64,000 bases of DNA from the NCBI GenBank assembly GCA_030696695.1, contig JAUYRP010000011.1, positions 1 to 64,000 on the forward strand, given 5' to 3'. The notes under the pieces are model-generated. The model did no database searches. It was not told the DNA's origin and worked only from the letters and a program-made list of their open reading frames with translations. This document shows positions 15,205 through 64,000 of this stretch, in pieces. Source of the stretch: Methylophilus sp. (GTDB lineage Bacteria; Pseudomonadota; Gammaproteobacteria; Burkholderiales; Methylophilaceae). Every line of letters starts with the position of its first letter. The stretch's first letter is position 1. The position numbers and the translations under genes were made by a program.

Positions 15205-15270
15205 ATTTTGTCAATAAAAACAAACACTTAAATTTACTTTATGTTGGCATTGTATTTGCAGTAGTTGTGT

Positions 15271-15771: not shown

Positions 15772-15779
15772 TTCACGAT

Positions 15780-18609: not shown

Positions 18610-18663
18610 TACTGATTCGACGACTCTTAAAAAATGACTTTAAAATCAAAGGCTAAGATAAAT

Positions 18664-18739
18664 TGGCGTCCCCACGGGGATTCGAACCCCGGTCGCCTCC
18701 GTGAAAGGGAGGTGTCCTAGGCCTCTAGACGATGGGGAC
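18664..18739 (-). tRNA. tRNA-Glu (UUC)
   Basis: The 76-base cloverleaf reads GTCCCCATCGTCTAGAGGCC... on the minus strand, with anticodon TTC in the loop of the CCTCC...GGAGG stem region, T-loop GGTTCGAATCC and an encoded CCA end. Its 3' end faces the integrase gene and is the probable attachment site. Confidence 0.95.
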
Positions 18740-18808
18740 CTAAGAAATTACAACTCAAGCATTTTACTATAGTTTGATTAAACCTAACATACGATTTATT
18801 CAATTTTT

Positions 18809-18884
<76 letters not shown>

Positions 18885-28614: not shown

Positions 28615-28618
28615 ACCT

Positions 28619-37537: not shown

Positions 37538-38717
37538 GAGGTCGAGGAGTCTGAGTCGATGTGGTGATGATTACCGCTTTTTTTGTCGTTTCTTTTTTAG
37601 GTGGAGGAGAAACTCCCTCTGTAGTTACAGTAAAAACTAAAGGTTCAACAGCATTAGAATTGGGATATTCACCAGTACAATAAAAGTCGCCCTTAGCTTT
37701 TTGGGTAATGTTCAAATATTCTGTTTTAGCCCGAATGCATGGTGGATCAGTGTCATCGTCTTTAATTGGTTTGCTACTAGCTACTATCACGGCGCCATTT
37801 TTAGTCTGGGATAAGGCATTTCTTGCGTCTTCATCAACTTTAGCCTTTTCTTTCATTTCAGACCAACTATCATATGATAAAGAGTGCCACGAACAATGAT
37901 GTGGTGTTTGTAATAAATCGTATTCAAATACTTGAGGTTCATGTTTATGGCGGCTCCATAAACAATTCCATATAAATACTTCGGCATCTCCGCCAGTCAA
38001 AAAGTTAGCGCCTACTGGATTCAAATTATCTGCAGCTAATGTAAAATTTATAATTACACTGGACTGATTTTTAGCTAAGCACTCCTCTTCTTCTTCCGTA
38101 TCTTCTGGGTCAAGTGGTGCAATTAAATGTGCAGAAAAGTAAAGAGAGGTTTTTCCTGCGATACTATTAAAATGACTGTCCCTGAGCCGTAAAATGGGTC
38201 CGAGATCATCTGTTTTCCCGTCTATATCTTTTCCCATTATCTGAATTCTATCGCCATCAGGAACAACAAAACCTTTATCCCGATTAGCTTTAACTCTTCT
38301 TCTGGCTTCTGTTGCCCACGCTGAGGCATCATCGGATAAAACATGATTTTTACTGGCTCGTCGGAAAACAATGGGTGATGACCACATTTCCTTGATAAGA
38401 ATTCGTTTGTCTTTATCCTCTTTATCATCGTCAGGGTAATCTGCTATATGACCCATATAAAAGTGCTTTATTAGGCCCCGGCAATGGTCCGCGTCTGGAT
38501 GGCTTAGAAGAAATGCGTCAACATAAGGCCTCCCATGTTCATCAGTCTTTAATTTTTCACGTAGATCTTTTGCTACATCTCGAACATCTATATCAGGATT
38601 ATCCGCATCAGCACGTATATTTACATCAATTAGCAGCGTTGTTTCTTCGGCATCCCCAAAACGAATCAATGTCATATCTCCGTTATCTACTGGGAAAAAT
38701 GTGATGGTAGTAGCCAT
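37530..38717 (-). CDS. ComEC-type metallo-beta-lactamase-fold protein with glycine-ended tail
   Basis: 395 residues with AAGGAT before the start. LLSHPDADHCRG (71-81) is the HxDxDH form of the MBL metal motif seen in ComEC/Rec2-like hydrolases. D244 (TGGDAE) and QTPHHCSWHS (270-279) supply later ligands. The family cleaves nucleic acid or phosphoester substrates, but this member's substrate is unknown. The last 35 residues are Pro/Thr/Lys-rich, apparently disordered, and end in PRPHG. A free C-terminal Gly on a flexible tail is what an E1/E2 enzyme attacks, so this may be the modified protein. It is translated with the fusion enzyme (8-base overlap). Confidence 0.83.
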   Translation of the reverse strand: MATTITFFPVDNGDMTLIRFGDAEETTLLIDVNIRADADNPDIDVRDVAKDLREKLKTDEHGRPYVDAFLLSHPDADHCRGLIKHFYMGHIADYPDDDKEDKDKRILIKEMWSSPIVFRRASKNHVLSDDASAWATEARRRVKANRDKGFVVPDGDRIQIMGKDIDGKTDDLGPILRLRDSHFNSIAGKTSLYFSAHLIAPLDPEDTEEEEECLAKNQSSVIINFTLAADNLNPVGANFLTGGDAEVFIWNCLWSRHKHEPQVFEYDLLQTPHHCSWHSLSYDSWSEMKEKAKVDEDARNALSQTKNGAVIVASSKPIKDDDTDPPCIRAKTEYLNITQKAKGDFYCTGEYPNSNAVEPLVFTVTTEGVSPPPKKETTKKAVIITTSTQTPRPHG

Positions 38718-38726
38718 TTTTTATCC

Positions 38727-39434
38727 TTATTTGACTATGTTATATGAATATGAGGTAAAAACTTCCCAAACGTATAGACGAAAGAATTTAAGGTATCGTA
38801 ATGTTAATCCGAATCCTAATAATAGAGCTGCTATAGCCCAGTTCAGGTTTTCTGTAGGGCCCTCTCCATAACGATACGACCAATACAATAGTCCGCTATC
38901 CAGAAATGCTACAAAAGCTACATTTCTACAAAAACCATATAGGTTAAGGAAGTTATCAAGTCTACTAGCAACTGTTGGAATGCATTTCACCTCTGTGAAT
39001 GCTATAACAAATAATGCCTCCCCTGATGCATTGATGCCCTTTGTATTAGCTTTTTCAAGTATTGAATTTTTTACTTCATCAGGTAGCGCTTTGAAATACC
39101 CAGGAAGAAAAAATCTAATTAGTCGACATGCCGTAGGTTGACCGAACAAAGTGTTTCTTGGATAACCAAGAACTGAACCTACTACTATTTTTTCTAAAAG
39201 AAAAGACGAGGCACTCGCAACAAGCTGCCCTACAGTGTAAGCGCTGGATATCGCTATTATTGATTGTATTATGGTCCATTTATCACGGTTTAATAAACCC
39301 AACATTGCCACATAATCAATCACAAACAAAAGTAAAAATCCTGCGGATAAATATGCCCAAAAATCATATGAAGTAAATGGTATTTTTTGATCCAAAATTT
39401 TCTCCCGTTTATCTATACTTGTTATGTTAAACAA
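38727..39434 (-). CDS. Multi-pass membrane protein, first gene of the conjugation operon
   Basis: 235 residues from a TTG start; no better in-frame ATG lies upstream. There are two hydrophobic segments near the N-terminus (DFWAYLSAGFLLLFVIDYVA, about 25-45; a region about 54-80) and two near the C-terminus (VAFVAFLDSGLLYWSY and WAIAALLLGFGLTLRYL), with a soluble middle of about 100 residues. The start PFTSYDFWAYLSAGF resembles a common uncharacterised membrane family. It ends 9 bases before the MBL gene, so the three genes form one operon. A membrane effector or anchor role is inferred from this context only. Confidence 0.7.
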   Translation of the reverse strand: MFNITSIDKREKILDQKIPFTSYDFWAYLSAGFLLLFVIDYVAMLGLLNRDKWTIIQSIIAISSAYTVGQLVASASSFLLEKIVVGSVLGYPRNTLFGQPTACRLIRFFLPGYFKALPDEVKNSILEKANTKGINASGEALFVIAFTEVKCIPTVASRLDNFLNLYGFCRNVAFVAFLDSGLLYWSYRYGEGPTENLNWAIAALLLGFGLTLRYLKFFRLYVWEVFTSYSYNIVK

Positions 39435-50621: not shown

Positions 50622-51419
50622 TTAAAACCATAATCTAAGCCCAGTAACCAAGCTCCACCCATTCACATCTTCACCTCGGTCTCTCGCAAAATCAGCCGTT
50701 CCACCATAGCGAGACTGCCATGACACACCAACATAGGGAGCGATTTCTCTCTTGATCTCATAACGCAAACGTAATCCTAGTTCGAGATCATTCAAGCCGC
50801 GGCCTATGCCTTGATTTTTTACTTCTTGGATTGCGTAATTGATAGCTAGGCGCGGCTGTAAAATCCAACGCTGGGTTAGCAGCAGCTCATATTCCAACTC
50901 AGCTCGCGCGGAAATATCGCCTCTCTCGCTCAAGAAAGTTGCGGCCTGTACCTCAAATCGATAAGGCGCAAGTCCTTGCACGCCTAAAACTGCGTGGCTA
51001 CGTGACGGCCCATCCGTTAATGGCTTTGAGTAGCGCAGTCCTGCTTGTATATCCCAAAATGGGGCGATGAGGCGACCATATAGAAGCTGCACATCTACAT
51101 CCTCAAGCTTACCATCATAGACTTTCGTGCCTTCAGTGTAATACCAGAGCCGATTGTAATCACCGCCGATCCATCCAACCGTATTAAATCGCAACGCATC
51201 AGCATTATTATCCCCATCCGTAAGACGAGTTGTGGTGTGTTCCAATTGATCGATCAGCAAGAAACTGCGAATAGCACTATCCTCAACGGGAGGTAGTAAT
51301 CCTTGAGATGTTTCTTCAGCACTTACCAATGAGGTCATCAATGCCGTTGAAGCCAAAAGTTCGCACGCTAGTACTGTAATAGCATGGCATACTCGATATT
51401 TTTTATTTGAAGTAATCAT
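50622..51419 (-). CDS. copB: Copper resistance outer-membrane protein CopB
   Basis: 265 residues. After a signal peptide comes the CopB/PcoB barrel: GYNRLWYYTEG, LLYGRLIAPFWDIQAGLRY, LEYELLLTQRWILQPRLAINYA, LRYEIKREIAPYVGVSWQ and a final Phe (LRLWF). The Met/His-rich N-terminal segment found in many CopB proteins is nearly absent here. Its start overlaps the copA stop by four bases. It works in the outer membrane with CopA in periplasmic copper tolerance. Confidence 0.92.
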   Translation of the reverse strand: MITSNKKYRVCHAITVLACELLASTALMTSLVSAEETSQGLLPPVEDSAIRSFLLIDQLEHTTTRLTDGDNNADALRFNTVGWIGGDYNRLWYYTEGTKVYDGKLEDVDVQLLYGRLIAPFWDIQAGLRYSKPLTDGPSRSHAVLGVQGLAPYRFEVQAATFLSERGDISARAELEYELLLTQRWILQPRLAINYAIQEVKNQGIGRGLNDLELGLRLRYEIKREIAPYVGVSWQSRYGGTADFARDRGEDVNGWSLVTGLRLWF

Positions 51420-53356
51420 GACAGCACCTCACCTTTTGGGTTAGTGACTGCCACTACGCGCAACATGCCTAGCTCCATGTGGAAAAGCAAATGGCAGTGG
51501 AAGGCCCACTTGCCAATCTCGTCAGGCTTAACATCGAATGACAGCCGCTCGCCTGGCTTGACATTAATTGTGTGTTTCATTGGACGCTTTACGCCTGCGC
51601 CGTTGTCCAGCACCATCCACATGCCATGCAGGTGCATTGGGTGGTCCATCATCGTATCGTTTACGAAAGTGATTCGAAGCCATTTGCCATATTCAAAGGG
51701 AATAGGTTCTTTGGCCTCAGAATATTTCTTTCCATCGAACCCCCATATTTGCCGCTCCATATTGCCAGTAATATGTAATTCAATTTCACGTTCCGGGTAG
51801 CCTTCCGGCCCGTCTGCGGACAATCGCCGCAAGTCACCATACACTAGCACTATACGGCCAGCATCGCCCAACCCACTGCCGGGTTCGTTAATTCGACTGA
51901 CTGGCATTTCTGCAATAGTGGAATTTCCTGGGCCATGTCGATCTGGCCCATGTGGTTTAGGTAATATATTTTCAGGGTTAGCTCGTGCTGTTACCGATCC
52001 CTTATCCATACTTGGCATTGCAGGCATTGCATCTAAAGGCTCTTCCATTCCTGTCATTCCATCCATCTTGGCATCACCTTTACTTATAGGCATTTCCATA
52101 TCAGACATGGGTAATTTAGTCACCGGTGGCATTGTCATCTCGGGCATCTCATTTGCACTAGGTTTGCCTTTAGATGGCATATCCATATTCCCCATTTCAT
52201 CGCCGGACATACCCATGTCGGCCATGTTTCGAAGAGGACGTATACGACGCGCTGGGATCGGCGCACGCAGTCCATACCGTAGCGCCAGCGTGCCCGCTGC
52301 GTAACCACTACGATCCATCGTTTCAGCAAAGATAGTGTAGGCCTCTTGGGTTTGTGGTTGCACGATCATGTCGTACGTTTCAGCGGGAGCGATACGGAAC
52401 TCATCAACGGTAACTGGTTCGACGTTCTGACCATCGGCTTGTACCAGCGTCATCTTTAGCCCTGGAATGCGAACATCAAAATGCGTCATCGCACCCGCAT
52501 TGATGAAGCGAATACGGATTCGCTCACCTGGTTTAAATAAAGTAGTCCAATTCTCGTTAGCTGATTGGCCGTTAAGCAAATAGGTATAGGTGAAACCAGT
52601 TACGTCGGCTATGTCAGTAGGGTCCATACGCATCTTTGCCCACTCCATTCGATCTTTAATCGTGGCTCGCCAACCGTTCTGGTTAGCATCGCGAAAAACA
52701 TCGCCCACCGTTCGCCGATTGTAGTTGTAGTATGAGCCAAACTTCTTCATCTTCGCCAGCACGCGCGCTGGATCCTCGAAGGTCCAATCCGACAGCATCA
52801 CGATGCATTCGCTATCGTAGGAGAATGGGTCGGGTGTAATAGGGTCGATAATCAATGGCCCGTAGAGCCCCGCCTGTTCCTGATTGCCGGAATGACTGTG
52901 GTACCAGTAAGTGCCACTTTGTTGAAGCTTGAATTGATAGGTGAAAGTTTCGCCAGATAAAATACCGGCGAAACTTACCCCCGGCACTCCATCCATGTGC
53001 TCCGGAACGATAAGTCCATGCCAATGTATGGAGCTCATTTCTTCTAGTTGATTGGTCACGCGAATTGTCACAGTCTCGCCCTCGCGAAACCTTAATACTG
53101 ACCCCGGCAACAAACCATTGACCACGGTTGGTGTGGCCGCGCGCCCTACAATGTTGAGCTTACGTTTGGCGATAACGAGATCAGTGACCGAAGCGGAGCC
53201 AATCAACTTAGATTCAGCGCCAATCGCGTAGGCTGGGAAGAGCCTGTAAAACATCAACCCTGCGCCAACTGCAACGCTATTTTTCAGGAAACGCCGTCGC
53301 TGATTTAGTATCGATGCATTAATTTCAATAATTTTTTTTGCAGTGCTACTTTTCAT
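51416..53356 (-). CDS. copA: Multicopper oxidase CopA (PcoA-type copper resistance)
   Basis: 646 residues with a Tat signal (NQRRRFLKNSVAVGAGLMF, about 18-36). Copper sites are present in HWHGLIVPEHMDGVPG, TYWYHSHSGNQEQAG, HPMHLHGMWM and AFHCHLLFHMELGM, so all type 1, 2 and 3 ligands are there. An insert at about 385-465 is loaded with Met, Asp and Gly (repeats like MGNMDM, MSDMEM) that would store or sense Cu(I). It oxidises Cu(I) in the periplasm. copA-copB overlap as one unit. Confidence 0.95.
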   Translation of the reverse strand: MKSSTAKKIIEINASILNQRRRFLKNSVAVGAGLMFYRLFPAYAIGAESKLIGSASVTDLVIAKRKLNIVGRAATPTVVNGLLPGSVLRFREGETVTIRVTNQLEEMSSIHWHGLIVPEHMDGVPGVSFAGILSGETFTYQFKLQQSGTYWYHSHSGNQEQAGLYGPLIIDPITPDPFSYDSECIVMLSDWTFEDPARVLAKMKKFGSYYNYNRRTVGDVFRDANQNGWRATIKDRMEWAKMRMDPTDIADVTGFTYTYLLNGQSANENWTTLFKPGERIRIRFINAGAMTHFDVRIPGLKMTLVQADGQNVEPVTVDEFRIAPAETYDMIVQPQTQEAYTIFAETMDRSGYAAGTLALRYGLRAPIPARRIRPLRNMADMGMSGDEMGNMDMPSKGKPSANEMPEMTMPPVTKLPMSDMEMPISKGDAKMDGMTGMEEPLDAMPAMPSMDKGSVTARANPENILPKPHGPDRHGPGNSTIAEMPVSRINEPGSGLGDAGRIVLVYGDLRRLSADGPEGYPEREIELHITGNMERQIWGFDGKKYSEAKEPIPFEYGKWLRITFVNDTMMDHPMHLHGMWMVLDNGAGVKRPMKHTINVKPGERLSFDVKPDEIGKWAFHCHLLFHMELGMLRVVAVTNPKGEVLS

Positions 53357-53451: not shown

Positions 53452-54753
53452 TTACAACCAGCCTCCTTTAAATCCAGCGCGCAGCAAGCCTTTAACGATA
53501 AATGGGCAGTTGCGCATTAATTTCCACAGCAGGCCAGTACGGTAATTTTCGATCATCAAAATGATCGGTCCTTGATTGAGCCCGAAATGCCACGGTGAGA
53601 CCCACCACCCATAAGGGTTGCCAGACATTCCTGGATGCATAGGATTATAAGAGGCCTTGAACCCGTAAGAATTAAACTCTGTCAGCTTGGCTTGATGAAT
53701 GCAATGATGAAGTGCGGGCAGAACTATTTCAGGAGCGAATGGCAACGATGCGACCAATGCCCAGGGTGAAAGAGTACCATCGTCAGGTCCGTACGGTACG
53801 CCCCGCGCCACGTAATCGAAAAACTGGCGCTCAATGCCGTCTATTTTGATAGTTTCGGGGCCAGGACCTTCACTTGCGGTAATTCCCCAGCAGCATGTGG
53901 CATAGCCTTTAAACTTGAGTGGGTTTTTGATTGCGTACTGTTGTTGCACATAAGTTGCACGTCGGCTGTTCTCAAAATAGTCGATGCCTTTATCACGCAT
54001 GAATGCGTCTTGAATACCACGAAAGTCTATCCAGACATGCGAGAGTTGATGGATAAATAGTGAGCCGCCGTAAAGATATTCCTGTCCGTAACAGTGTTCC
54101 CACTGGTAAGTGGATGCCCATGCCGTATAGCTATGTTCTGGCAAAGGATAGGTCGGCGAGCCCAGCCCCAATATATATAAAAGTAGCGCCTCGTCGTATC
54201 CCTCCCATCGATATTTAATGAAACCACTTTCTGGTTTCCAGCCGTGTGTCACCGTCGTACCCTGATTTTGCGCCCATTGCCAGTCCGCGCGTCTATAGAG
54301 CGCATCAGCGAGTGTTCGAATTTCAGTTTCATCTGCTGTGTCGGCATCAAAGTAAATCCCTGCCGTCAATGCGCCTGCCAACAAGAAAGCGCTATCCACT
54401 GTTGAAAGTTCGCATTGCCAAGCACGTCGACCAGTCTGCATGTCAAGGAAATGATAGTAAAACCCCTGGTAGCCAGTCGCGTCAGGTTCGGGTCCTTGCG
54501 GACTGTTATAGAAAAAACGCAAAGTCACCAGCGTCCGCTCTACCGCAGCTGCTCGCGACATAAATCCGCGTTCTACACTAACTGGGTAGCAGGCCAACGC
54601 AAGACCTGTGGCGGCAATACTAGCAGGCCAATCTGCAGCAGTCTTGTCAATCACCAAACCATTATCAGGATTCGTCTCAAACAAAAAATAGTCGAATGTT
54701 TGGCGCTGTAAATTTTCCAATTCTGCATCTACAGTTTGGATAATGGGGTTCAT
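53452..54753 (-). CDS. Glucoamylase-family (GH144-like) protein
   Basis: 433 residues and no signal peptide. The alpha/alpha-barrel pattern is that of the glucoamylase family with endo-beta-1,2-glucanase members: QTFDYFLFETNPDNGLVIDK, STVDSAFLLAGAL, KYRWEGYDEALLLYILGLGSP, FIHQLSHVWIDFRGIQD, CCWGITASEGPGP and GPDDGTLSPWALVASLPFAPE. Absence of an export signal suggests a cytoplasmic glycan target. It is 4 bases from the ATP-grasp-like gene, so the two should act together. Their link with copper genes is unexplained. Confidence 0.8.
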   Translation of the reverse strand: MNPIIQTVDAELENLQRQTFDYFLFETNPDNGLVIDKTAADWPASIAATGLALACYPVSVERGFMSRAAAVERTLVTLRFFYNSPQGPEPDATGYQGFYYHFLDMQTGRRAWQCELSTVDSAFLLAGALTAGIYFDADTADETEIRTLADALYRRADWQWAQNQGTTVTHGWKPESGFIKYRWEGYDEALLLYILGLGSPTYPLPEHSYTAWASTYQWEHCYGQEYLYGGSLFIHQLSHVWIDFRGIQDAFMRDKGIDYFENSRRATYVQQQYAIKNPLKFKGYATCCWGITASEGPGPETIKIDGIERQFFDYVARGVPYGPDDGTLSPWALVASLPFAPEIVLPALHHCIHQAKLTEFNSYGFKASYNPMHPGMSGNPYGWWVSPWHFGLNQGPIILMIENYRTGLLWKLMRNCPFIVKGLLRAGFKGGWL

Positions 54754-54757
54754 GGTT

Positions 54758-56137
54758 TTACATCGCTTCGCGAACTTGTTCTGAGTCCGCTAAAATATCA
54801 GTGAATACTGGTGCAAAACCTCCTCTTGGGGTGCGGAAATTGGTCGTCTGACCCTGATACAGGCGCGCCGTGATAAATTGTACATCGCCGTCATACACAA
54901 AGTTGCGAACATCAAACTTGAGTGCTTGAGGTAGCTGATGATCCGCTAACAGACGCTCTCCAGGGGGCACGAGTGCTTGCGCTATATAATCCCCGGCTAG
55001 TATTTCACCCCAAACCCGTTTGGTTAATTTATCACCTCGATAAGCAGCTCTGCTTCCGAAACCTGCGGCAGGCTTGAAAAATAGTTTGCGCCGCTCTGAC
55101 CACAAGCGCTCAGCATCAGCGGGATCGACAATCTCAGTTCGAGGAATGCCGCTCAGAAGCGTTTGTACTATGTCTTCAGAAACTCCGAGCGAACGCAAAC
55201 GCTCAGGATGAGTGAGTACTGCGAAATTACGTTTGTTGGCGTAAAGTGCATGAGCACGCGGATGTGGTGTCAGAACGATGGCATTATTTAAATATGCCTC
55301 GCGCAGGACTGTGTGCTCAGGCTCTTCCAGCGTAAAGTCGGTTAGCCTGTTATACACAAGATCAATCTGTGCTTCCCCATGCCACAAAACTCCGTCGTGC
55401 AACTGCAACTCCATTGGGTCGACGATTACTGCATCAACCCCATGTTGGCGAAACAGCTGTTGAAACAGCATGAACTCGGGATAAAGATACTGGTTATGCG
55501 GGTTATCGTCAACGATAGCGATGCGTCGCAAATCCCTTTCGCCACGGGCCAGACGCCATTCGGCGAAAAACATAGTGAAGAAGGTCTGATGGAGTGCTTC
55601 AAGCGCAACTGAGCTGGTAGTCATATCGGCGACCGCGGGACAACAAGCTCTCTGCGCGCGAGCTAGTATGGCACTAAGAAGCGCGCCACCTGCATTAGTA
55701 TTGATCTCAATTAATTTAGGCTCTTTGCCGGATATATGGAAATCGTAGCTAAGGAACACACCTTGCGTACCACCTGCATCGTAGTGCGCAATCTTTGGCG
55801 CCCATTCGAGCACGACCTCTCGAAATGCAGGTAACGCAATAACTGTCTGTGCCGCACTCACGATTGCGGCCATGCGGTCCAGATGATGCCTTGACACAAA
55901 AACTGGCATAGCTGCAAATAGATGTGGGCATTTTTCTAAAATTAATGGATATAAGTCGTGCGTTTCGGGGTCCATTTCCAACTCGCGCTTGAGTGCATCA
56001 CTGTCAAGACTGATGCAGAAGCAGTTGTTATTTAATGATTCGATACCGAGTATTTCCGATTGGATATCACAGGCGGGCTGCTGCCCAGATGTGCATTTTG
56101 TTTCATAAAAAGTGCTTAAGTTCTTTGATTCAATCAT
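54758..56137 (-). CDS. ATP-grasp-like ligase of unknown substrate
   Basis: 459 residues from the ATG at 56137 with AAGGAAAACC ahead; an ATG six codons upstream has no such site. Features that look like an ATP-grasp enzyme: FLSYDFHISGKEPKLIEINTNAGGALL near residue 145-170, RIAIVDDNPHNQYLYPEF, IDLVYNRLTDF and a C-terminal FFKPAAGFGSRAAYRGDKL followed by FDVRNFVYDGDVQFITARLYQGQ. The order, with acidic substrate-type residues before the Lys loop, recalls the glutathionylspermidine-synthase-like class. The substrate cannot be told from sequence. It is coupled to the glucoamylase-family gene. Confidence 0.6.
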   Translation of the reverse strand: MIESKNLSTFYETKCTSGQQPACDIQSEILGIESLNNNCFCISLDSDALKRELEMDPETHDLYPLILEKCPHLFAAMPVFVSRHHLDRMAAIVSAAQTVIALPAFREVVLEWAPKIAHYDAGGTQGVFLSYDFHISGKEPKLIEINTNAGGALLSAILARAQRACCPAVADMTTSSVALEALHQTFFTMFFAEWRLARGERDLRRIAIVDDNPHNQYLYPEFMLFQQLFRQHGVDAVIVDPMELQLHDGVLWHGEAQIDLVYNRLTDFTLEEPEHTVLREAYLNNAIVLTPHPRAHALYANKRNFAVLTHPERLRSLGVSEDIVQTLLSGIPRTEIVDPADAERLWSERRKLFFKPAAGFGSRAAYRGDKLTKRVWGEILAGDYIAQALVPPGERLLADHQLPQALKFDVRNFVYDGDVQFITARLYQGQTTNFRTPRGGFAPVFTDILADSEQVREAM

Positions 56138-56183
56138 GGTTTTCCTTGTGGGCATTATCGATAATGGCTTGCAATTAGTATGC

Positions 56184-57092
56184 TCAATGATGTTTGATAA
56201 AGCCCGCGCCTTTGATGTCGTTCCACGAAGTCGTCTGATGACAAAGATAGCATTGATTCACTTTAGCATTAGGTTGACGCGCAATCGGCGCTGACATCAT
56301 TGAAAAGTGCATCATGTTGTGACTAGGTGGTGCTAAATGACATTGTGCGCAATTGGTCGAGCGTGGAGATGGATGACGAAATTCGGAAATAGTCCACTGA
56401 GTTGTGGCGTGACACTGAGCACAATTTGTGCCTAAGTTACCTTGATGGCGATCTTTAGTCGCGTGACAGCTGACGCAATTGAGCATAGATTCATTAGCAC
56501 CTAAGCGTGGGTGATTGACTGGCAATTCAGGCGCACTTGATGGCTCGGAGGTGACTTTGTTTGTGGAGCCATTACCTGAAGCTTGGTGCATTTCCATCTC
56601 GTTGTTACGTGAACTCGCAAGGGGTTTCTGCGCGACATTGCGAGGTAATTTATCAAATAATTTAACGATTGTTTTAATGTCTTGAATACTCAATTCTTGC
56701 TCTGATGCGCTTGCCTTTATTTGCTTATGTCCTATTTTTGCCAGTAAAGCATGATCCATCGTTGTCGGCATGCGCACAGTTCCTTGGTGTTCTACATGGC
56801 AGCCTGTACAAGTTTGAATATTTGCATGAAACGCGGTTGGCTGTCGTTGTAAAAGCGCTAAATTATTGGCGTGGCAAGCGATGCATTTCCCGGCTTCGAC
56901 GCCTTTTACTTGTGTGTGACATGCAACACAATTGTTTGAGAGCGATGCATGTGATTGTGACAGTGCACCTGGGGCTACAGCTTGTTGCCATAACGTCCGT
57001 GTTTCTGAATTGCTGGTTCCCCACTCAATGCCAATGGTAATCGCAAGGGCGACCACGGCGATGATTGCAACAAGGATCTTAATTTTGCTCAT
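56184..57092 (-). CDS. Periplasmic seven-haem cytochrome c
   Basis: 302 residues from ATG 57092, four bases after the previous stop. An N-terminal membrane anchor (KILVAIIAVVALAITIGIEW) is followed by seven CxxCH motifs: CVACH, CIACH, CTGCH, CVSCH, CAQCH twice and CYLCH. The first three and last four are separated by a low-complexity linker of about 100 residues. Multihaem proteins of this shape carry electrons through the periplasm. Together with the next two genes upstream it forms an electron route out of the cytoplasm. Confidence 0.88.
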   Translation of the reverse strand: MSKIKILVAIIAVVALAITIGIEWGTSNSETRTLWQQAVAPGALSQSHASLSNNCVACHTQVKGVEAGKCIACHANNLALLQRQPTAFHANIQTCTGCHVEHQGTVRMPTTMDHALLAKIGHKQIKASASEQELSIQDIKTIVKLFDKLPRNVAQKPLASSRNNEMEMHQASGNGSTNKVTSEPSSAPELPVNHPRLGANESMLNCVSCHATKDRHQGNLGTNCAQCHATTQWTISEFRHPSPRSTNCAQCHLAPPSHNMMHFSMMSAPIARQPNAKVNQCYLCHQTTSWNDIKGAGFIKHH

Positions 57093-57096
57093 GACA

Positions 57097-57843
57097 TCAA
57101 AGCCATCTGAGCCCGTATTGCACGCCAGCCCATATGTGCAGGGCGAGAAGCACATAAAGAAAAATGGATAGCATGATATGCAGCTTCAGTGACCAGCCGA
57201 AACAATACTTGAATATTTCATGCATGCGAACCGAGTATTCCAAGTCTGCCACAGAATCGGCGATATGCGTCACCTCAGTCGCGGCGTCACTGGCATGTGG
57301 TATAGGTGCAAATGACGCGAGATTACTCATAAGAAGAGGAGTTTTTTGAATAACGCTAGTTTCCGTTTGGGCGTTCTCCATCACCCCCCAAGCATTGTCG
57401 AGATCTCCTCTTGCAGTCTGCAAAAGAACCAATTTATCTTTGATTTCATTGGTGACAAAAGTGAGCAGATACCTAACCACAAATCCGCTCACAACTGCGA
57501 GTAGCATCACTGCAGTCAATGCAATTCCCAGCCAGCTTTCGAATTTGTGACCTGTATGAATGATCGCGAGTAGCGGGCCAATTATGCCAGCGTAAACGTG
57601 CAGGGTCATCAAAGATTGCATTGAAATGTTTGGTGTAATTCTAGTATGCAAAAAGGGGATGCGTTTTACTACCGTGTAAACGAGCGGCAGTAGCAAGAGT
57701 ACTGCACCCACTATGCCGAATACTGCACCGATTCCACTGCCTGGAAAACGTGGCGAGCGATGCAGGAAGAATCCGAGCCAAGTCAAAAGCAGGATGATGA
57801 ATACGCCAGTGACAACAATGCCTTCTTTATCTTTCTCCTTCAT
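57097..57843 (-). CDS. b-type cytochrome-like membrane protein
   Basis: 248 residues with six predicted helices. Haem-ligand candidates occur in MTLHVYAGIIGPLLAIIHTGHKFES (about 79-103) and LKLHIMLSIFLYVLLALHIWAG (about 220-241), paired as in b561 or ferric-reductase-type cytochromes. A soluble loop at about 135-200 separates the two halves. It ends four bases before the seven-haem cytochrome and starts two bases after the flavin reductase, so the three are co-translated. It probably carries electrons from the reductase across the membrane. Confidence 0.75.
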   Translation of the reverse strand: MKEKDKEGIVVTGVFIILLLTWLGFFLHRSPRFPGSGIGAVFGIVGAVLLLLPLVYTVVKRIPFLHTRITPNISMQSLMTLHVYAGIIGPLLAIIHTGHKFESWLGIALTAVMLLAVVSGFVVRYLLTFVTNEIKDKLVLLQTARGDLDNAWGVMENAQTETSVIQKTPLLMSNLASFAPIPHASDAATEVTHIADSVADLEYSVRMHEIFKYCFGWSLKLHIMLSIFLYVLLALHIWAGVQYGLRWL

Positions 57844-57845
57844 GG

Positions 57846-60050
57846 CTATGCCTCGACCTCAACAGGTCCCTTCGCCTTTGCCTGACAAGCCAGAATAATG
57901 CCCTGGGCCTTATCGTCATCATCAAGCCCATCCTCTACTGCCATTTCGACTTCGCCAGAGGCCATCTTAACTTTACAAATGCCGCAAGTTCCAACGCGGC
58001 ATGCGAATTCAATGCCAATGTTTAGTTCTTCCGATAACTCTAAAATAGTCTGATCATCATGAATTTTGGCTGACTTGTTATTTTTAAGAAATGTAATTAG
58101 CGGACCAGTTGCAGGGGTAGTAGGTTTAGCGACAGTACGGTCGGTTGCAGGCGCTGGAGCTGCTGTACCGAAATTCTCAGTCTTAATCAGTTCTGGAGGA
58201 ACCTTTAATTCAGTTAGCATCACCTTGACCGCTTCCATCATTACCTGCGGCCCGCAGATATGGACTCTGCGCGTAATAATGTTCGGAACCGCATGTACTA
58301 ACAATTCCCTACTAATGCGTCCCTGATGACCTGTCCAGTCGGTGCTTTCCGTGCGATCCATTGTCACTGTAACGTGCAGTTTCGGATTCGCTGCTTGCAG
58401 CTCAGCAATGTCTTTAGCAAAAATAAATTCTTCTGGAGTACTACACCCATATATAAAGAAAATATCTCCTGGCCACGACCGTTCCGTCAAATAACGCGCA
58501 ATACTCATCAGAGGCGTGATCCCTACGCCGCCTGATATAAGCACAATACTTTCCGCCTCTGCTCCTGTAAATGCAAACCGCCCTACGGGACCACCCGCCT
58601 CAATCTCGTCGTCAACTTTAAGCAAATCAACAATGTGTCTAGATACTGCACCCCGTGGTTCTCGTTTCACTGTCAAATCTACATATTCTCGCCGCGTTGG
58701 GGAGGAGGATATTGAGTAAGATCGGTTCATTCTTGCCCCACCAATCGAGAAAGAAAGGTTGAGAAACTGACCAGGCAAAAAGGTGAAAGGCAAGACACTG
58801 CTGTTAGATGCAGGTATTAGACGCAGGGTTTTTACGTTCGGCGTTTCACTAATAATACTCCCCACCCTTAACTGCCCGCGCCAATTAGCAGTTAACGGCA
58901 ACGTCAATTCATATGCATTTAAAGTGATAGTTGACAATTTAGAGTTTGGGCTCATCGCCTGAGACTTTTTTATAGGGGGCGACTTTGGACTAGTAAGGTC
59001 AGTAAGTGGCGCTGTGGGCTCTACGGTGCTTTCATCTTGTGGTACTAGTGGAGGGGATGGACTAGTTGATTTTCCACCAAGTGGTGGTGATGCTCCAGGT
59101 GGTGGCGATTCAGAATCCTGTTTGATACGGCCGAAGAGGTTTTCTGCTCGACGCATTTTTAAAAAGTACATGACGACCATTGCAAGTGCGAAAGCAATAA
59201 GTAGTCCCATTGTGAAAAGGTGTAAAGGCGTCACGCCCCTCAGAAAATCAGGGCCGTCGTTTGTAATGGTAGTATCAAGATTCATTTCGCGTTGGAACCA
59301 TTGTGCGGCAACACTCTTCGGGGGAGCTCCCTCGATAAGAAGCCGATGCGCGGCCACACCGCTTGCTATCAAACCTAAACTATCGCGAGATTGCTGAAGT
59401 GCTCGCTCGGTTGCTTTGATATCGCTTATTTGTAACGCTTTCGACAAGCTGGCATGCGCTTTCTGGAATTCAAGCGTACCTTTGTGAATACTCTCTTGGG
59501 AGAGACGTTCTACTTCGAGTCGAGCATCGTGGGTCCATGCGGGCAGACTCATCAAGAATGGATATAGCTCTTTGCGAGATGCCCCAACTCCCCCGCAACA
59601 ACCCTCAGTGCTGTTTTGCATGCCCGTAGCCATCATGTCTTTCATCATTTTTTGCATGCCCTCCATCATTCCCGCCGCCTTCATCGGCGGAGCTGGCATT
59701 GATGTAGATTCTTGAGGAAGATTTTGCTCAGGCCCCGGGATACCCATCAGCGCAGCATCTGGGCTCGTAGCATCCAGAGTTGGACTAATCGGTGCATTAC
59801 TATTTGGTGGGTTACTTGAGGGCTGATTACTAGATGGTGTGTTACTAGATGGGGTGTTACTAGGAGCAACAGCGGGGTGATGAGACTCATGTTCACTTTG
59901 ATCCAACTGCGCATTTGCTGTTGATATTCCTAATATAATCGCCAACATTGCCATGCAAACAATTCGTATAGTTTTGATGTCCGACTGAACTATTAACAGT
60001 TTAAAAAGATTACGTTCCTTAGAAAGTAACATCATATGAATAGTTATCAA
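57846..60050 (-). CDS. Membrane-anchored FAD/NAD/2Fe-2S reductase with periplasmic Met/Cys-rich domain
   Basis: 734 residues, an unusual fusion. A signal-type helix at about 28-47 is followed by a Pro/Ser/Asn linker and a Met-rich head (GMMEGMQKMMKDMMATGM, GCCGG at 150-154). A helical region runs to about 270, then a second membrane helix (276-298). The C-terminal half is a ferredoxin-NAD reductase: RSYS (443-446) for FAD, GGVGITP (507-513) for NAD, CGP (599-601), then a plant-type 2Fe-2S domain with C684, C689, C692 and C722. NADH would be oxidised in the cytoplasm while the head lies outside. The true start among several early Met codons is uncertain. Confidence 0.82.
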   Translation of the reverse strand: MITIHMMLLSKERNLFKLLIVQSDIKTIRIVCMAMLAIILGISTANAQLDQSEHESHHPAVAPSNTPSSNTPSSNQPSSNPPNSNAPISPTLDATSPDAALMGIPGPEQNLPQESTSMPAPPMKAAGMMEGMQKMMKDMMATGMQNSTEGCCGGVGASRKELYPFLMSLPAWTHDARLEVERLSQESIHKGTLEFQKAHASLSKALQISDIKATERALQQSRDSLGLIASGVAAHRLLIEGAPPKSVAAQWFQREMNLDTTITNDGPDFLRGVTPLHLFTMGLLIAFALAMVVMYFLKMRRAENLFGRIKQDSESPPPGASPPLGGKSTSPSPPLVPQDESTVEPTAPLTDLTSPKSPPIKKSQAMSPNSKLSTITLNAYELTLPLTANWRGQLRVGSIISETPNVKTLRLIPASNSSVLPFTFLPGQFLNLSFSIGGARMNRSYSISSSPTRREYVDLTVKREPRGAVSRHIVDLLKVDDEIEAGGPVGRFAFTGAEAESIVLISGGVGITPLMSIARYLTERSWPGDIFFIYGCSTPEEFIFAKDIAELQAANPKLHVTVTMDRTESTDWTGHQGRISRELLVHAVPNIITRRVHICGPQVMMEAVKVMLTELKVPPELIKTENFGTAAPAPATDRTVAKPTTPATGPLITFLKNNKSAKIHDDQTILELSEELNIGIEFACRVGTCGICKVKMASGEVEMAVEDGLDDDDKAQGIILACQAKAKGPVEVEA

Positions 60051-60097: not shown

Positions 60098-60928
60098 CTA
60101 CATATCAGACATTGGAGCAGGCTCATTCATTGGGGTCGGCATTGGTGTACTGCTATTAGCAGGAGCAGGCATTTTACCTGTCGACGACATGGTACCGAGC
60201 AATGATGCACGCTGATTACTAGTAAGGACTTTGCCAGCCTCCCCAACCGCACGAATAAATGCTAGCCGTTGATCACCACGAAGCTTTTCAATTGATCTAA
60301 CTTTCGAGTCTATTTTGCTTGCATCTGGAGTATCTGCTGCTGTTAAGGTCCAAAGCATCTGTTCGCTATCCTGAATGCGACGATTGAAATTCGCCCGATC
60401 AAGTAATGCTTTTTCTTTTAATCGATTTAAAGCTGATTGTTGCTGAATAGAAAGTGTTATGTGCTGCGGATGATCAAGAAAAAAACCGGTTGATCCAATG
60501 TGATATAAATGTGATGCGCCTGGAAAACCTGGCAGCTGTGAATTCGGTACCATTATTTTCATGCTTGGCTTCTGTATTGATTCCCCCATACAACCCATCA
60601 TGCACGAATTAGGTGTCGACGCCATTGGGTCTTGCATGCTGTTGGGCGAATCAACTGCAGACATGGCATCATCAGGTGGCATATTGCCACTCATATTACC
60701 CATCCCACCTTTCTTCTTCATTTTCATCTCCTCCATTTCATCCATCATGGCTAGATGAAAATTCGAGACTATTAATTTTGAAGCAGAATGTGCACTCCAC
60801 AACTCTTGCGCATTATTACCTGTCCTCAATGAATGCTGTTGATTGAGCAAATCCAACTCATTCGCGGACGTATTTGAGGTAAAAAAGATAATTGAAACGA
60901 GTAAAGAAATCTGTATTGAAGTTTTCAT
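60098..60928 (-). CDS. Met-rich periplasmic metal-binding protein
   Basis: 276 residues with a signal peptide (SIQISLLVSIIFFTSNTSA). It has two Met-rich stretches (MMDEMEEMKMKKKGGMGNM near 61-80 and MPTPMNEPAPMSDM at the end) plus CMMGCMGE. The middle (LDHPQHITLSIQQQSALNRLKEKALLDRANFNRRI) resembles the helical CpxP/Spy/CnrX-type metal-sensing or chaperone fold. It is the gene next to the reductase and likely hands over or buffers copper. Function inferred from composition and context. Confidence 0.65.
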   Translation of the reverse strand: MKTSIQISLLVSIIFFTSNTSANELDLLNQQHSLRTGNNAQELWSAHSASKLIVSNFHLAMMDEMEEMKMKKKGGMGNMSGNMPPDDAMSAVDSPNSMQDPMASTPNSCMMGCMGESIQKPSMKIMVPNSQLPGFPGASHLYHIGSTGFFLDHPQHITLSIQQQSALNRLKEKALLDRANFNRRIQDSEQMLWTLTAADTPDASKIDSKVRSIEKLRGDQRLAFIRAVGEAGKVLTSNQRASLLGTMSSTGKMPAPANSSTPMPTPMNEPAPMSDM

Positions 60929-61301: not shown

Positions 61302-61682
61302 TTACTTTTTATGCATGGGCATTTCACTCATATTCATTAATAAGTGATGCTCACTCATCATCTGTTCCATCATCTGGTCCATCAGTTTTTGATGCTCATT
61401 AATCCAATCCTCATGCTCCTGCATAGTCATGCCAGCTTTAGGTTTCATAGCTTGCATACTTTTCATTGATTCATGCATCATCTTCATGTGCTCACCCATG
61501 AGTTTCTGACGTTCAACTCCTTTTGCAGCTTCTGCTTGTTGTAGTATTTGCTTAGATTTAAGCACTTGTTGAGTAAGTTGACGCTGATTATTGTCTTGAC
61601 CGGCAAGTAAAGGTGTTGAAAGAAATCCAAATGAGCTTACGATCAGAATGGCAATTAATTTGTTAACTTTGTGGTTGGTCAT
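61302..61682 (-). CDS. Small Met/His-rich periplasmic protein
   Basis: 126 residues. A signal peptide (KLIAILIVSSFGFLSTPLLAG) precedes one helical domain with KLMGEHMKMMHESMKSMQAM, MTMQEHEDWINEHQKLMDQMMEQMM and a terminal SEMPMHKK. The density of Met and His at helix spacing suggests Cu(I)/Ag(I) binding. I know of no firm family function. It lies between a copper P-ATPase gene and the redox group, downstream of a long promoter region. Confidence 0.7.
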   Translation of the reverse strand: MTNHKVNKLIAILIVSSFGFLSTPLLAGQDNNQRQLTQQVLKSKQILQQAEAAKGVERQKLMGEHMKMMHESMKSMQAMKPKAGMTMQEHEDWINEHQKLMDQMMEQMMSEHHLLMNMSEMPMHKK

Positions 61683-62305: not shown

Positions 62306-64000
62306 TTAGGAGTCAGATTTTCTCAACCGTAAAGCATTTGTAATCACAGAGAAAGAACTTAAACTCATTGCAAGTGCTGCAATCATGGGCGACAGTAACC
62401 AACCGGTAAATGGATAAAGAACACCCGCCGCCAGTGGCACACCCAGTGCATTATAGACAAATGCAAAGCCCAAGTTTTGCTTCATATTGACGATGGTCTG
62501 TTCTGATATAGCCCGTGCTTGAGCTATACCACGTAAGTCACCTTTAACAAGTGTGACTTGAGCACTGTTCATCGCAACATCAGTACCTGTTCCCATCGCA
62601 ATACCAACATCTGCTTTCGCTAATGCAGGTGCATCATTAATACCATCTCCCGCCATCGCTACTACATGCCCTTCACGTTGTAATTTATCTACCAAGGCTA
62701 ATTTATCAGCAGGCTTTACCTCACCATGAAATTCTTCGATGCCTAACTTAGCTGCAACTGACTTAGCAGTGAGTTGGCCATCCCCTGTTGCCATAATGAC
62801 GCGCATGCCTGAAGCTTTTAAAGTAGATAATGCTTCTAATGTGCTTTCTTTGATTGGATCTGATACTGATAGTAACCCAGCCAACTTGTTATCTACAGCT
62901 AGATACATGACGCTAGCACCCGTGGTGCGCAATTCATCCGCTTGTATTTTTAATGGCTCGATTTGCACGTTCAGCTGATCCATCAGCGCAGTATTTCCAA
63001 GCGCCAATTGTTTACCACTAACCCTGCCACGCACACCAATGCCTGTGCTGGACTCAAAGCTGTCAACTTTATCAATCACTAAACTTTTTTCACGCGCTGC
63101 TTTAACAATTGCATCGGCTAAGGGATGCTCACTACCTTGATCAAGACTAGCGGCTAATCTTAGAATTTCGTCTTCAGTGTAACCCGACAAAGCTACCGCG
63201 AGATTAAAACGTGGTTTGCCTTCGGTCAATGTCCCCGTCTTGTCTACGATCAAAGTATCTACCTTGCGGAAATTCTCAATGGCTGCAGCGTCGCGAAATA
63301 ACACGCCTTGTGATGCAGCTTTACCAGTGGCGACCATGATAGACATAGGTGTTGCCAATCCAAGCGCACAAGGGCAGGCAATAATGAGTACCGCCACTGC
63401 GTTGATTAGACCAAACACCCAACTGGGTTCGGGGCCAAAAAATCCCCATATAAAAAAAGTGATGAGCGCAATACTGACGACAGCAACCACAAAGTAGCCT
63501 GCCACTTGGTCAGCCATGCGTTGCATAGGCGCTTTTGAGCGTTGCGCTTGCATAACCATTTGTACAATACTGGCCAATACTGTTTGTGAGCCCACTTTTT
63601 CAGAACGCATGATTAATGCGCCGCTGGTATTCATCGTTGCGCCAATAAGTTTATCCCCAACCCCTTTCGAAACAGGCATAGGTTCGCCAGTGAGCATAGA
63701 TTCATCCACTGCACTTTGACCTTCTGTAACAATGCCATCAACAGGGACTTTTTCACCAGGACGAATGCGTAACAAGTCACCAACATGAACATGTGTGAGT
63801 GCAATATCTTCTTCAACTCCGTCCGCATTTATTCTGCGGGCTGTTTTAGGCGATAAACCAAGTAAGGATTTAATTGCTGCAGACGTTTGTGAGCGCGCCT
63901 TCAGTTCTAAGATTTGGCCAAGTAATGTTAACGAAATAATCACTGCTGCTGCCTCAAAGTAGACGGCTACGCGACCCATCGCCATAAAAGATGCTGGGAA
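62306..64000 (-). CDS. copA: Copper-translocating P-type ATPase (partial, 5' end outside window)
   Basis: 564 residues of the C-terminal part are visible; the frame is open through base 64000 (FPASF just before the first in-window Met), so the N-terminal metal domains are cut off by the edge. Present: [16 protein letters not shown] actuator, [11 protein letters not shown] transport motif, [11 protein letters not shown] phosphorylation site and [12 protein letters not shown]. The [10 protein letters not shown] form and helix ending fit Cu(I)/Ag(I) pumps rather than Cd/Zn pumps. It removes copper from the cytoplasm. The same symbol is in use for the multicopper oxidase at 51416, which is unrelated. 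Confidence 0.93.

Follow-up and report, generated by a model that had tools for sequence, protein, structure and literature searches.

What do a flavin reductase and two cytochromes do among copper-resistance genes, and what would they reduce? The question is raised by the window analysed here, a stretch of 64,000 nucleotides from a Methylophilus sp., in which the minus strand from position 60050 to 56184 encodes a reductase, a membrane cytochrome b and a cytochrome c (the trio), with gaps of 2 and 4 nt calculated from the ORF coordinates. A first-pass annotation had read these genes as an NADH-to-periplasm electron chain inside a copper operon. An ORF check found all three to be real, and Pfam matches and motifs fit a reductase, a predicted b-type membrane cytochrome and a seven-haem cytochrome c. 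The three modules that fit such a chain stand; copper as the substance reduced is not settled.

A three-gene cassette in a metal-resistance island

The trio sits within a metal-resistance island of nearly 40 kb, whose genes share one strand and reach beyond contig position 77 kb (Table 1). Its copper setting is larger than first described, with CopA, CopB, a copper P-type ATPase and two CusA/CzcA pumps (TIGR00914, over cut-off). The island also holds a DUF305 protein and a second multicopper oxidase that falls below the TIGR01480 cut-off.

Table 1. Features of the trio and its surroundings, in window coordinates
Feature	Coordinates	Strand	Basis
CopB/PcoB outer membrane protein	50622..51419	minus	PF05275 E 1.2e-79
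CopA/PcoA multicopper oxidase	51416..53356	minus	TIGR01480, 792 bits
Glucoamylase-family protein	53452..54753	minus	PF10091 E 3.8e-83
Protein of 465 aa with no match in Pfam, immediately downstream of trio	54758..56155	minus	ORF
Periplasmic cytochrome c with seven haems and a membrane anchor or signal at its N-terminus	56184..57092	minus	seven CXXCH; Pfam Cytochrome_C7, Cytochrom_c3_2
Predicted membrane cytochrome b of five helices, with two HX13H (H82/H96, H222/H236) and invariant H28, H99	57097..57843	minus	alignments, AlphaFold, profile match
Reductase with signal peptide, Met-rich helical head in the periplasm, single TM helix, Pro-rich linker and, in the cytosol, FAD/NAD and 2Fe-2S domains (predicted)	57846..60050	minus	Pfam, AlphaFold, Foldseek
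Metal_resist-like periplasmic Met-rich protein, recurrent partner	60098..60928	minus	PF13801 E 3.2e-06, 27.8 bits vs cut-off 29.2
Small secreted Met/His-rich protein	61302..61682	minus	ORF; weak family matches only
Copper-translocating P-type ATPase	62306..64000, gene continues to contig position 64678	minus	TIGR01511, 587 bits, over cut-off

Of 279 relatives found, we kept the 80 loci most similar to the query, so that close relatives weigh heavily among the contexts; Legionella contributes 13 of the 80. All three genes are present in every one of these best 80 loci, in constant order and on a constant strand; the trio is therefore a genuine cassette, beyond chance. A marker for the Metal_resist-like protein, chosen post hoc, is found in 44 of the 80. 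A scan for promoters and terminators gave 22 and 11 sites, no better than shuffled sequences (means of 26.3 and 12.5), and we therefore make no claim about transcription units.

Between the trio and CopAB lie the 465-residue ORF, with a homologue in 5 of the best 80 loci, and the glucoamylase-family gene (PF10091).

Cofactor motifs and predicted structures

The reductase matches FAD_binding_6 (PF00970), NAD_binding_1 (PF00175) and Fer2 (PF00111), all above cut-off, which bears out the FAD, NAD and 2Fe-2S motifs reported at first pass. Its AlphaFold model contains a hairpin (residues 142–208), a helix (243–278) and FNR/ferredoxin parts. The best Foldseek match is phthalate dioxygenase reductase (E 2.6e-22), and 18 of the 31 solved relatives listed have NADH in their names. 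A helix followed by K-M-R-R leads us to place the FAD/NAD domain in the cytosol. The ORF starts at a TTG; an alternative ATG at 59954 would, in our reading, give a better-looking signal peptide.

The periplasmic head had been described as Met/Cys-rich. The Met part of this description holds, with M100, M103, M104 and M108 kept in 89–98% of the 44 aligned rows on which conservation in the head was scored, whereas the Cys pair of the window copy is absent from the conserved residues. H22/H25/H26 are further conserved residues of the type that binds copper. In 12 of the best 80 loci the reductase is spread over two ORFs, and in the four of these that were inspected (L034, L037, L038 and L048) the break falls in the linker, so that the head with its transmembrane helix and the flavoprotein appear to be separable modules. 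The idea that the head is a copy of the upstream Metal_resist-like protein was unsupported (hhalign prob 0.5).

The cytochrome b has no Pfam or NCBIfam assignment over cut-off; Ferric_reduct (PF01794) is not matched, and the sole Pfam hit, DUF4396, lies under cut-off. Six histidines are invariant among 62 aligned sequences. Two HX13H motifs occur in 55 of 55 rows. Of two further motifs of PCC3 inner membrane proteins, SGXXG on helix 4 and WX3HX13H, the first (as SG..G) is seen in 33 and the second (as W...H.{13}H) in 43 of the 55, the window copy reading SGFVV at the former. The AlphaFold model (pLDDT 86) has five long helices plus one short. By hhalign the protein matches four PCC3-like inner membrane proteins adjoining 27-haem cytochromes (prob 99.1; 20 shuffled and one reversed control reached at most 17), and from gene content and two studies (PMC5566968; PMC10734462) we read these four as PCC3 inner membrane proteins. 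Foldseek returned nothing at E 0.001 or better among PDB folds, with SpNOX (8qq7) at rank 8 (E 0.59), and a PDB sequence search gave three weak matches with unrelated names. VIA-align fold matches (Z up to 9.9) were rejected: they pair mainly the long helices of residues 103–248 with unrelated long-helix proteins, and the tool's own note calls such Z values common for helical models.

The cytochrome c starts at 57155 in the ORF list; the start supported by alignment is the ATG at 57092. CXXCH motifs lie at residues 55, 70, 95, 206, 224, 248 and 281, and exactly seven are present in 87 of 88 cytochromes c, in line with the seven haems first counted. A PDB sequence search found one tetrahaem protein (E 0.00036). 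H258/M260/H262/M265 are conserved residues of copper type; these and the conserved Met and His residues of the reductase head may instead be haem ligands. The host has ResB and a CcmH match was not found, which points to system II for c-haem attachment.

Copper genes around the trio in other genomes

The first-pass annotation had named a trio occurring mostly away from metal genes as the pattern that would speak against it; the loci do not show this pattern. A copper marker (multicopper oxidase, CopB, heavy-metal P-ATPase, DUF411, four-helix Cu or CusA) is present at a 60-bit cut in 51 of the best 80 loci, and in 38 of the 48 among them of at least 20 kb; the profiles behind these counts derive from the very sequences under study (window, plasmids and neighbour clusters), and with the P-ATPase marker copper pumps cannot be told from those for other heavy metals. 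At E 1e-5 a strong copper marker is found in 52 of the 80. The 29 of the best 80 loci lacking any copper marker at the 60-bit cut speak against a copper-only role, although they lie in part on short contigs. In a less biased sample, with L034 as the centre of the draw left out, a strong copper marker was found in only 6 of 11 loci.

A chance rate was obtained for the multicopper oxidase only: the 39 genomes to which 40 of the best 80 loci belong, 246.5 Mb in total, contain 178 matches to TIGR01480 at E 0.001. The oxidase occurs in 26 of these 40 loci against 0.58 expected, about 45-fold over chance, where the expectation leans high because fragments were counted separately. For scoring the loci themselves, another profile from this family was used. 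The association of trio and oxidase is far above chance and is not universal.

The trio occurs under ten phylum labels, many from MAGs, and also on plasmids. The cytochrome b tree requires 15 phylum changes for ten groups, against a least possible 9 and a shuffled mean of 40.9; the labels are therefore mostly clustered, with some mixing. MAG contamination can add changes; mobility is supported more firmly by the copies on plasmids.

A candidate electron conduit and its possible acceptor

Judging from the encoded motifs and the predicted topology, the three proteins very probably form one inner-membrane electron conduit. Electrons would flow outward from NADH, presumably in preference to NADPH, to the FAD of the reductase's cytosolic part, from there to its 2Fe-2S cluster, then to two stacked b haems in the five-helix protein, with H82/H222 as the inner and H96/H236 as the outer pair, and on to the seven-haem cytochrome in the periplasm, each protein presumably carrying its full set of cofactors. 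He et al. connect a pair of b haems with two HX13H motifs, one on helix 3 and one on helix 5 (PMC5566968). In plan the conduit would resemble a ferric/cupric reductase (NOX/FRE) that is divided between two chains and extended by a haem wire; eukaryotic FRE and STEAP haem reductases are described as reducing Cu(II) too (PMC7558416). The missing Ferric_reduct match and the missing significant PDB fold match for the cytochrome b count against this plan.

The conduit would most likely reduce periplasmic Cu(II), either free or on Met/His-rich island proteins. The resulting Cu(I) could be managed by Met-rich carriers and Cu(I) pumps, and the Met-rich head of the reductase, next to the conduit, would act as a binder or sensor of copper. 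We put copper as the main acceptor at somewhat less than an even chance. The explanation as a whole, an NADH-driven transmembrane reductase on the ferric/cupric plan with a heptahaem end and periplasmic Cu(II) as its likeliest acceptor, is one that we favour tentatively, just short of even likelihood. Multicopper oxidases are thought to oxidise Cu(I), and this opposite reaction, if carried out by the neighbouring oxidases, counts against cupric reduction. A bolder version is rather unlikely: that the trio is a mobile NADH-driven transmembrane cupric reductase, in which a split ferric-reductase-type core feeds a heptahaem cytochrome and sets the periplasmic Cu(II)/Cu(I) state, travelling with copper-resistance genes under ten phylum labels.

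Other possible roles for the conduit

The main rival is NADH disposal in low-oxygen islands, which we regard as possible and on the doubtful side. The conduit would be an overflow valve for low-oxygen or dormant cells, reoxidising NADH from stored glucans or fermentation with whatever acceptor is available (metal ions, hydrogenase, or O2 through the multicopper oxidase), and copper genes would co-travel because of shared stress islands. Glucan and dehydrogenase genes do lie near some trio copies: with the cut at 60 bits, 33 of the best 80 loci have glucan or pentose-phosphate markers, 30 have GDH or AdhP, and 39 have copper genes together with genes of these types, the sugar markers being post hoc. 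In L070, what we take to be Xfp-AckA (phosphoketolase/acetate kinase) sits directly upstream of the reductase, and homologues of both occur in 4 of the best 80 loci; genes that we take to be N-ATPase-like are near the trio in all 13 Legionella loci among the best 80; and [NiFe]-hydrogenase genes adjoin it on an Alteromonas plasmid and in L044. Some copies that neighbour hydrogenase, Xfp-AckA or sugar genes show no strong copper marker within the flank retrieved, which counts against a copper-only role. However, the energy and sugar markers were picked after the loci had been seen, a background rate exists for the multicopper oxidase only, and the roughly 45-fold oxidase link, the Met-rich head and the Metal_resist-like partner point to metal.

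It is improbable that the heptahaem cytochrome feeds the CopA/PcoA multicopper oxidase, a quinone-free periplasmic NADH:O2 route that would keep up respiration when copper poisons the main chain. He et al. propose PcoAB as a porin-multicopper oxidase electron conduit, but regard PcoA chiefly as an enzyme that oxidises Cu(I) or Fe(II) (PMC5566968). At E 1e-5 the oxidase marker is present in 43 of the best 80 loci, but missing from the fetched flank in 37.

More improbable still is an inward chain, from a periplasmic donor (H2 via hydrogenase, Fe(II) or Cu(I)) through the cytochrome c to cytosolic NAD+, much as models of PCC3 have electrons enter from a donor outside the cell and end in the quinone pool (PMC5566968). 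Hydrogenase neighbours some trio copies, but hydrogenase subunit markers match only one genome locus among the best 80 and one plasmid record among 8. NAD+ reduction by Fe(II) or Cu(I) is, moreover, uphill near neutral pH.

Least probable is that the chain feeds repair of copper-damaged, oxidised periplasmic proteins (MsrP-like or thiol systems), the MsrP-like form of which had been offered at first pass and finds no support here: MsrQ is likewise driven by a cytosolic flavin reductase, but an hhalign comparison of the cytochrome b with a single sequence, the putative MsrQ-like protein of the window, gave no profile similarity (prob 0.2), a putative MsrP/MsrQ-like pair already lies at 27571–29218, apart from the trio, no MsrP-like ORF was recognised by eye beside the trio, and no repair family was found among the 20 cluster representatives scanned from 47 neighbour clusters listed.

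Models of copper resistance contain pumps, binders and oxidases, and hardly a dedicated periplasmic reductant. If cupric reduction is the true role, the trio would supply copper islands with an enzyme on which the reduction of Cu(II) could be tested; if NADH overflow is, an energy-side function would be concealed in metal-resistance plasmids.

Comparison with known systems

The claim that no described copper system has this exact set is not contradicted in the limited literature searched, yet parts of the set are known from two papers: PCC3-type inner membrane proteins (PMC5566968) and orf1/cyt of an Alteromonas hydrogenase operon (PMC3102683).

Like the trio, the FRD group (FRE, NOX and STEAP) has two HX13H helices for two b haems, a cytosolic FAD/NAD domain and outward flow; the trio differs in its separate chains, its added 2Fe-2S cluster and heptahaem cytochrome, and its lack of a Pfam Ferric_reduct match. 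MsrPQ, in which a cytosolic flavin reductase serves a membrane haem protein and a periplasmic partner, has the same overall layout, with no sequence relation detected. RclA is linked to pyridine nucleotides and, unlike the trio, is not a membrane haem chain. It is a Cu(II) reductase of E. coli, the copper being intracellular according to the title of the report (PMC7527725). CcoG, as described in PMC7558416, is like the trio a bacterial membrane-bound redox protein and reduces Cu(II); it has two 4Fe-4S clusters and a donor that is not known, whereas the trio has flavin, 2Fe-2S and haems. Pfam finds no Fer4 domain in any trio protein, which sets the trio apart from the 4Fe-4S polyferredoxin type of CcoG.

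The HynSL operon of the Alteromonas macleodii Deep ecotype runs orf1/cyt/orf2/hynD/hupH/hynS in the passages describing it (PMC3102683). The plasmid locus L023 runs cytochrome b, cytochrome c3, a 1224-nt ORF, endopeptidase, hydrogenase expression protein and small subunit; this order matches, and by it we identify orf1/cyt as the trio cytochromes b and c. Those passages present Orf1 and Cyt as products of hydrogenase-operon genes, dispensable for maximal activity in E. coli, and do not name the reductase (PMC3102683).

The clusters that He et al. (2017) group as "Other multihaem cytochrome c" share with the trio an inner membrane protein of the shorter kind, with five helices and two HX13H, as well as a multihaem cytochrome, mostly one more redox protein and, with two exceptions, the lack of a porin; they differ in placing the inner membrane protein downstream of the cytochrome (PMC5566968).

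PCC3, as treated by He et al. (2017; PMC5566968) and in the Gallionellaceae study (PMC10734462), combines a periplasmic multihaem cytochrome c with an inner membrane protein that has five helices and two HX13H. The cytochrome b shares this build, and its profile homology is to the PCC3-like proteins found here. The periplasmic cytochrome has seven haems in the trio and 21–27 in PCC3 (PMC5566968). Unlike PCC3, the trio lacks an extracellular cytochrome, no further ORF with at least two CXXCH being present in the window or in contig 60–80 kb; no large porin of PCC3 type was recognised by eye among the ORFs, CopB being an outer membrane protein of another family; the operon has a dedicated FAD/2Fe-2S reductase; and the setting is copper islands rather than iron-oxidiser clusters. 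He et al. proposed a quinone link for PCC3 (PMC5566968). The PCC3-like inner membrane proteins found here, homologous to the cytochrome b, also adjoin an NAD(P)H-type flavoprotein with 4Fe-4S; a corollary of the mobile cupric reductase, if it is true, is that PCC3-type conduits would be wired to NAD(P)H, not quinones. A membrane family without annotation is linked in this way to PCC3 conduits, which suggests a route by which electrons may enter or leave PCC3.

A reductase–cytochrome b–cytochrome c cassette in a metal island

The three genes recognized in the first-pass annotation, encoding an FAD/NAD/2Fe-2S reductase, a b-type membrane cytochrome and a heptahaem cytochrome c, are present as described at 60050–56184 (Table). 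Downstream (3′) of the cytochrome c, the window ORFs encode, in order, a 465-residue protein without a Pfam match, a glucoamylase-family protein, CopA and CopB. On the 5′ side, same-strand genes extending past the window encode a small protein rich in Met and His, a copper P-type ATPase, an 83-residue metal-binding-like protein, a DUF305 protein, a second multicopper oxidase, an outer membrane factor-like protein, a DUF2231 protein, a monohaem-type cytochrome c and a CusA-type pump set; where a family match was lacking, the name is our assignment. With metal genes on both sides, the trio lies within a single metal island of nearly 40 kb whose genes run in one direction.

Three further regions of the window were noted (Table). 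The sigma factor/FecR-like pairs and TonB-receptor-like genes have an ExbBD/TonB-like set between them, and the E1-like/JAB-like protein, possibly part of a ubiquitin-like or defence operon, adjoins what we take to be a metallo-β-lactamase-like gene and tyrosine recombinases.

Features of the window and of other loci carrying the trio or weak relatives of its cytochrome b
Feature	Position	Strand	Remark
Metal_resist-like Met-rich periplasmic protein	60928–60098	minus	first gene of the 5′ to 3′ series
Reductase	60050 or 59954 to 57846	minus	two candidate starts
Cytochrome b	57843–57097	minus	3′ of reductase
Heptahaem cytochrome c	57092–56184	minus	3′ of cytochrome b
Second CusA/CzcA pump set	43.9–50 kb		family match
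P-type ATPase of Cd family	39.6–42 kb		family match
Large protein, presumably joining E1-like and JAB-like parts	35285–39434		by eye
Integrase-like gene adjoining two tRNA genes	17332–18884		likely island insertion site
Two sigma factor/FecR-like pairs, two large TonB-receptor-like genes	3809–16751		by eye
Trio directly adjoining [NiFe]-hydrogenase genes (structural or maturation)	L044 3603–11541; L023 7064–18717		L023, Alteromonas plasmid
Further trio copy	L020 12241–15514		Bradyrhizobium BTAi1 plasmid
Single-chain Ferric_reduct plus FAD/NAD reductase	L088 11663–13138		Pfam; directly after cytochrome c
PCC3-like clusters	L108 6756–11122; L109 5496–9853; L111 5907–10032; L112 5615–9920; L113 4477–7311		

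Architecture of the three proteins

The reductase scores over the Pfam cut-off for FAD_binding_6, NAD_binding_1 and Fer2. Among solved structures its closest sequence relatives are benzoate dioxygenase reductase, a P450 reductase and NADH-cytochrome b5 reductase, and of the 31 such relatives listed 18 have names that include NADH. In the fold comparison phthalate dioxygenase reductase comes nearest. In the model a helical hairpin (142–208) and a long helix (243–278) are followed by a low-confidence Pro-rich linker and then the flavin domain. All 44 reductase rows conserve two residues of the membrane helix, H245 at its start and R269 close to the inner end. Two ORFs 5′ of the cytochrome b match the reductase profile in 12 of the best 80 of 279 loci, and in the four such loci read (L034, L037, L038 and L048) the split point is the linker. 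An extra ORF 3′ of the trio also matches the reductase marker in L038, L042, L097 and L098, and the Bradyrhizobium plasmid copy has a short reductase gene starting beside an IS3 transposase.

The cytochrome b is modeled with five long helices and has six invariant histidines (H28, H82, H96, H99, H222 and H236), with two HX13H motifs in all 55 rows. Of these, H82, H96, H222 and H236 are the predicted b-haem ligands, while H28 and H99, with H245 of the reductase, are a possible third site. From the charge pattern, H82/H222 would lie close to the cytosolic side and H96/H236 close to the periplasmic side. A further, predicted periplasmic domain extends the C terminus of the cytochrome b in seven loci (L058, L059, L061, L064, L074, L094 and L096); in L061, the one fusion locus scanned, it is DUF547 by Pfam.

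Besides its seven CXXCH motifs, the cytochrome c has seven non-motif histidines invariant in 48 rows (H48, H89, H102, H114, H216, H240 and H258) and three more kept at 0.90–0.94 (H262, H301 and H302), sufficient for seven distal haem ligands with some to spare. Across the same rows M112, M260 and M265 are kept at 0.90 or above, and an H-x-M-x-H-x-x-M stretch is kept in 42. Exactly seven motifs occur in 87 of 88 cytochromes c (from the best 80 of 279 genome loci and 8 plasmid loci); the exception has four and is, in our reading, the shortened ORF of L103.

The cassette is intact, rare and widespread

A collection of 84,980 genomes yielded 279 cytochrome b relatives, of which the best 80 were kept as loci. 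All 80 have the three genes in unchanged order and strand, and, measured between stop-to-stop frames, the reductase–cytochrome b spacing is at most 20 nt and the cytochrome b–cytochrome c spacing at most 100 nt in 76 loci each. Among 72,556 plasmid records, cytochrome b and cytochrome c, counted separately, each gave 52 matches, and the trio was present in all eight records read.

In draws made independently of similarity, cytochrome b was found at E 1e-20 in 6 of 397 other genomes of the host's phylum, presumably Pseudomonadota, and in 9 of 294 genomes of the phylum of L034, apparently Planctomycetota, with L034, the centre of that draw, counted among the nine; six of the nine matches had E below 1e-90. 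One hundred relatives of the host gave 12 matches at E 0.001, one of them strong (E 1e-130, 79% identity) and the others weak and PCC3-like. The cytochrome b tree carries ten phylum labels, many from MAGs, and isolates or their plasmids have the trio in at least Pseudomonadota, Planctomycetota, Verrucomicrobiota and Bacteroidota. Non-pathogenic carriers include Variovorax sp. WDL1 and a Sphingobium strain. The cassette is thus rare in most lineages yet very widely distributed.

Copper genes and other neighbours

At E 1e-5, the best 80 of 279 loci contained markers for multicopper oxidase (43), Metal_resist (44), CopB (17), heavy-metal ATPase (17) and CusA (16). At a 60-bit cut, a strong copper marker (multicopper oxidase, CopB, heavy-metal P-type ATPase, DUF411, four-helix Cu or CusA) was present in 51 of these 80, in 38 of the 48 of at least 20 kb, and in 28 of the 38 left when Legionella is excluded. 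For 40 of the 80 loci (39 genomes), multicopper oxidase occurred in 26, against 0.58 expected from those genomes' own content. Eleven less biased loci comprised six from the host's phylum (L122–L127) and five from Planctomycetota (L103 and L128–L131). Six (L122, L123, L125, L127, L130 and L131) had a strong copper marker and three (L126, L128 and L103) other markers only; in L124, marker profiles over the fetched locus found nothing beyond the trio, and the 5.9-kb contig of L129 carries just the trio. Of the NADH-to-periplasm chain in a copper operon that had been proposed, the modules and the copper setting stand; the loci that lack copper markers speak against a copper-only role.

Among the same best 80 of 279, at the 60-bit cut, glucan or pentose-phosphate markers occurred in 33 loci, GDH or AdhP in 30, and copper together with any of these in 39. 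AckA and Xfp homologues were found in four of the 80; in L070 the order is Xfp-AckA-reductase-cytochrome b-cytochrome c-DUF1622, the first two names being our assignment. All 13 Legionella loci (L073, L085, L086, L087, L091, L093, L095, L099, L100, L101, L102, L104 and L105) have, 5′ of the trio, an operon that we take to be N-ATPase-like, one subunit of which has a Pfam ATP-synthase match. Most also have glutamate dehydrogenase or multicopper oxidase markers, an unusual energy-plus-metal island.

The hydrogenase neighbours in two loci (Table) suggest that in the periplasm the heptahaem cytochrome can also work with other partners. By gene order, the Alteromonas plasmid cytochromes b and c would correspond to orf1 and cyt of the AltDE hydrogenase operon. 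The AltDE study cites earlier work in which the hydrogenase reached maximal activity in E. coli without Orf1 and Cyt; its own assays used methyl viologen (PMC3102683), which would bypass a natural partner. Hydrogenase and metal resistance genes share one island on Alteromonas plasmids, and the trio goes unnamed in the sections consulted (PMC4781885, PMC8478169).

Proposed electron route and acceptor

We propose an outward route in which electrons would pass from NADH through FAD, 2Fe-2S, two b haems and seven c haems to a periplasmic acceptor, most likely Cu(II). The copper setting, the reductase's own Met-rich head and the H-x-M-x-H-x-x-M stretch conserved in the cytochrome c all point to copper, as does the parallel with the eukaryotic FRE/STEAP cupric reductases (PMC7558416); the case is weakened by the adjacent Cu(I) oxidases and by those loci in which no copper marker was found. 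The main rival is disposal of NADH under low oxygen, kept alive by the glucan/pentose-phosphate, GDH/AdhP, Xfp-AckA, hydrogenase and N-ATPase-like neighbours. The two readings are compatible in part, provided that copper is one acceptor among several.

Comparison with porin-cytochrome clusters

PCC3 clusters pair a periplasmic cytochrome, with a median of 21 haems, with a conserved five-helix inner membrane protein that bears two HX13H motifs (He et al. 2017, PMC5566968); a second study gives haem counts of 21, 24 and 27 (PMC10734462). The weak cytochrome b relatives in the host's family and order adjoin cytochromes with 24–27 CXXCH motifs (five loci inspected), which fits PCC3 clusters. A cytochrome b profile built from four of these sequences matched the trio's own cytochrome b profile at probability 99.1 (E 9e-19), compared with at most 17.0 for 20 block-shuffled controls and 0.4 for the reversed one. 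The trio is not itself PCC3: its cytochrome c has seven haems rather than a median of 21, and no second multihaem cytochrome (two or more CXXCH) was found in the window or in contig 60–80 kb.

In the four PCC3-like loci scanned (L108, L109, L111 and L112), an opposite-strand 4Fe-4S/pyridine-nucleotide flavoprotein adjoins the cluster and is a candidate for the true electron partner of the PCC3 inner membrane proteins. He et al. proposed a quinone link (PMC5566968); the trio's dedicated reductase and the flavoprotein of the PCC3-like loci would suggest pyridine-nucleotide wiring instead.
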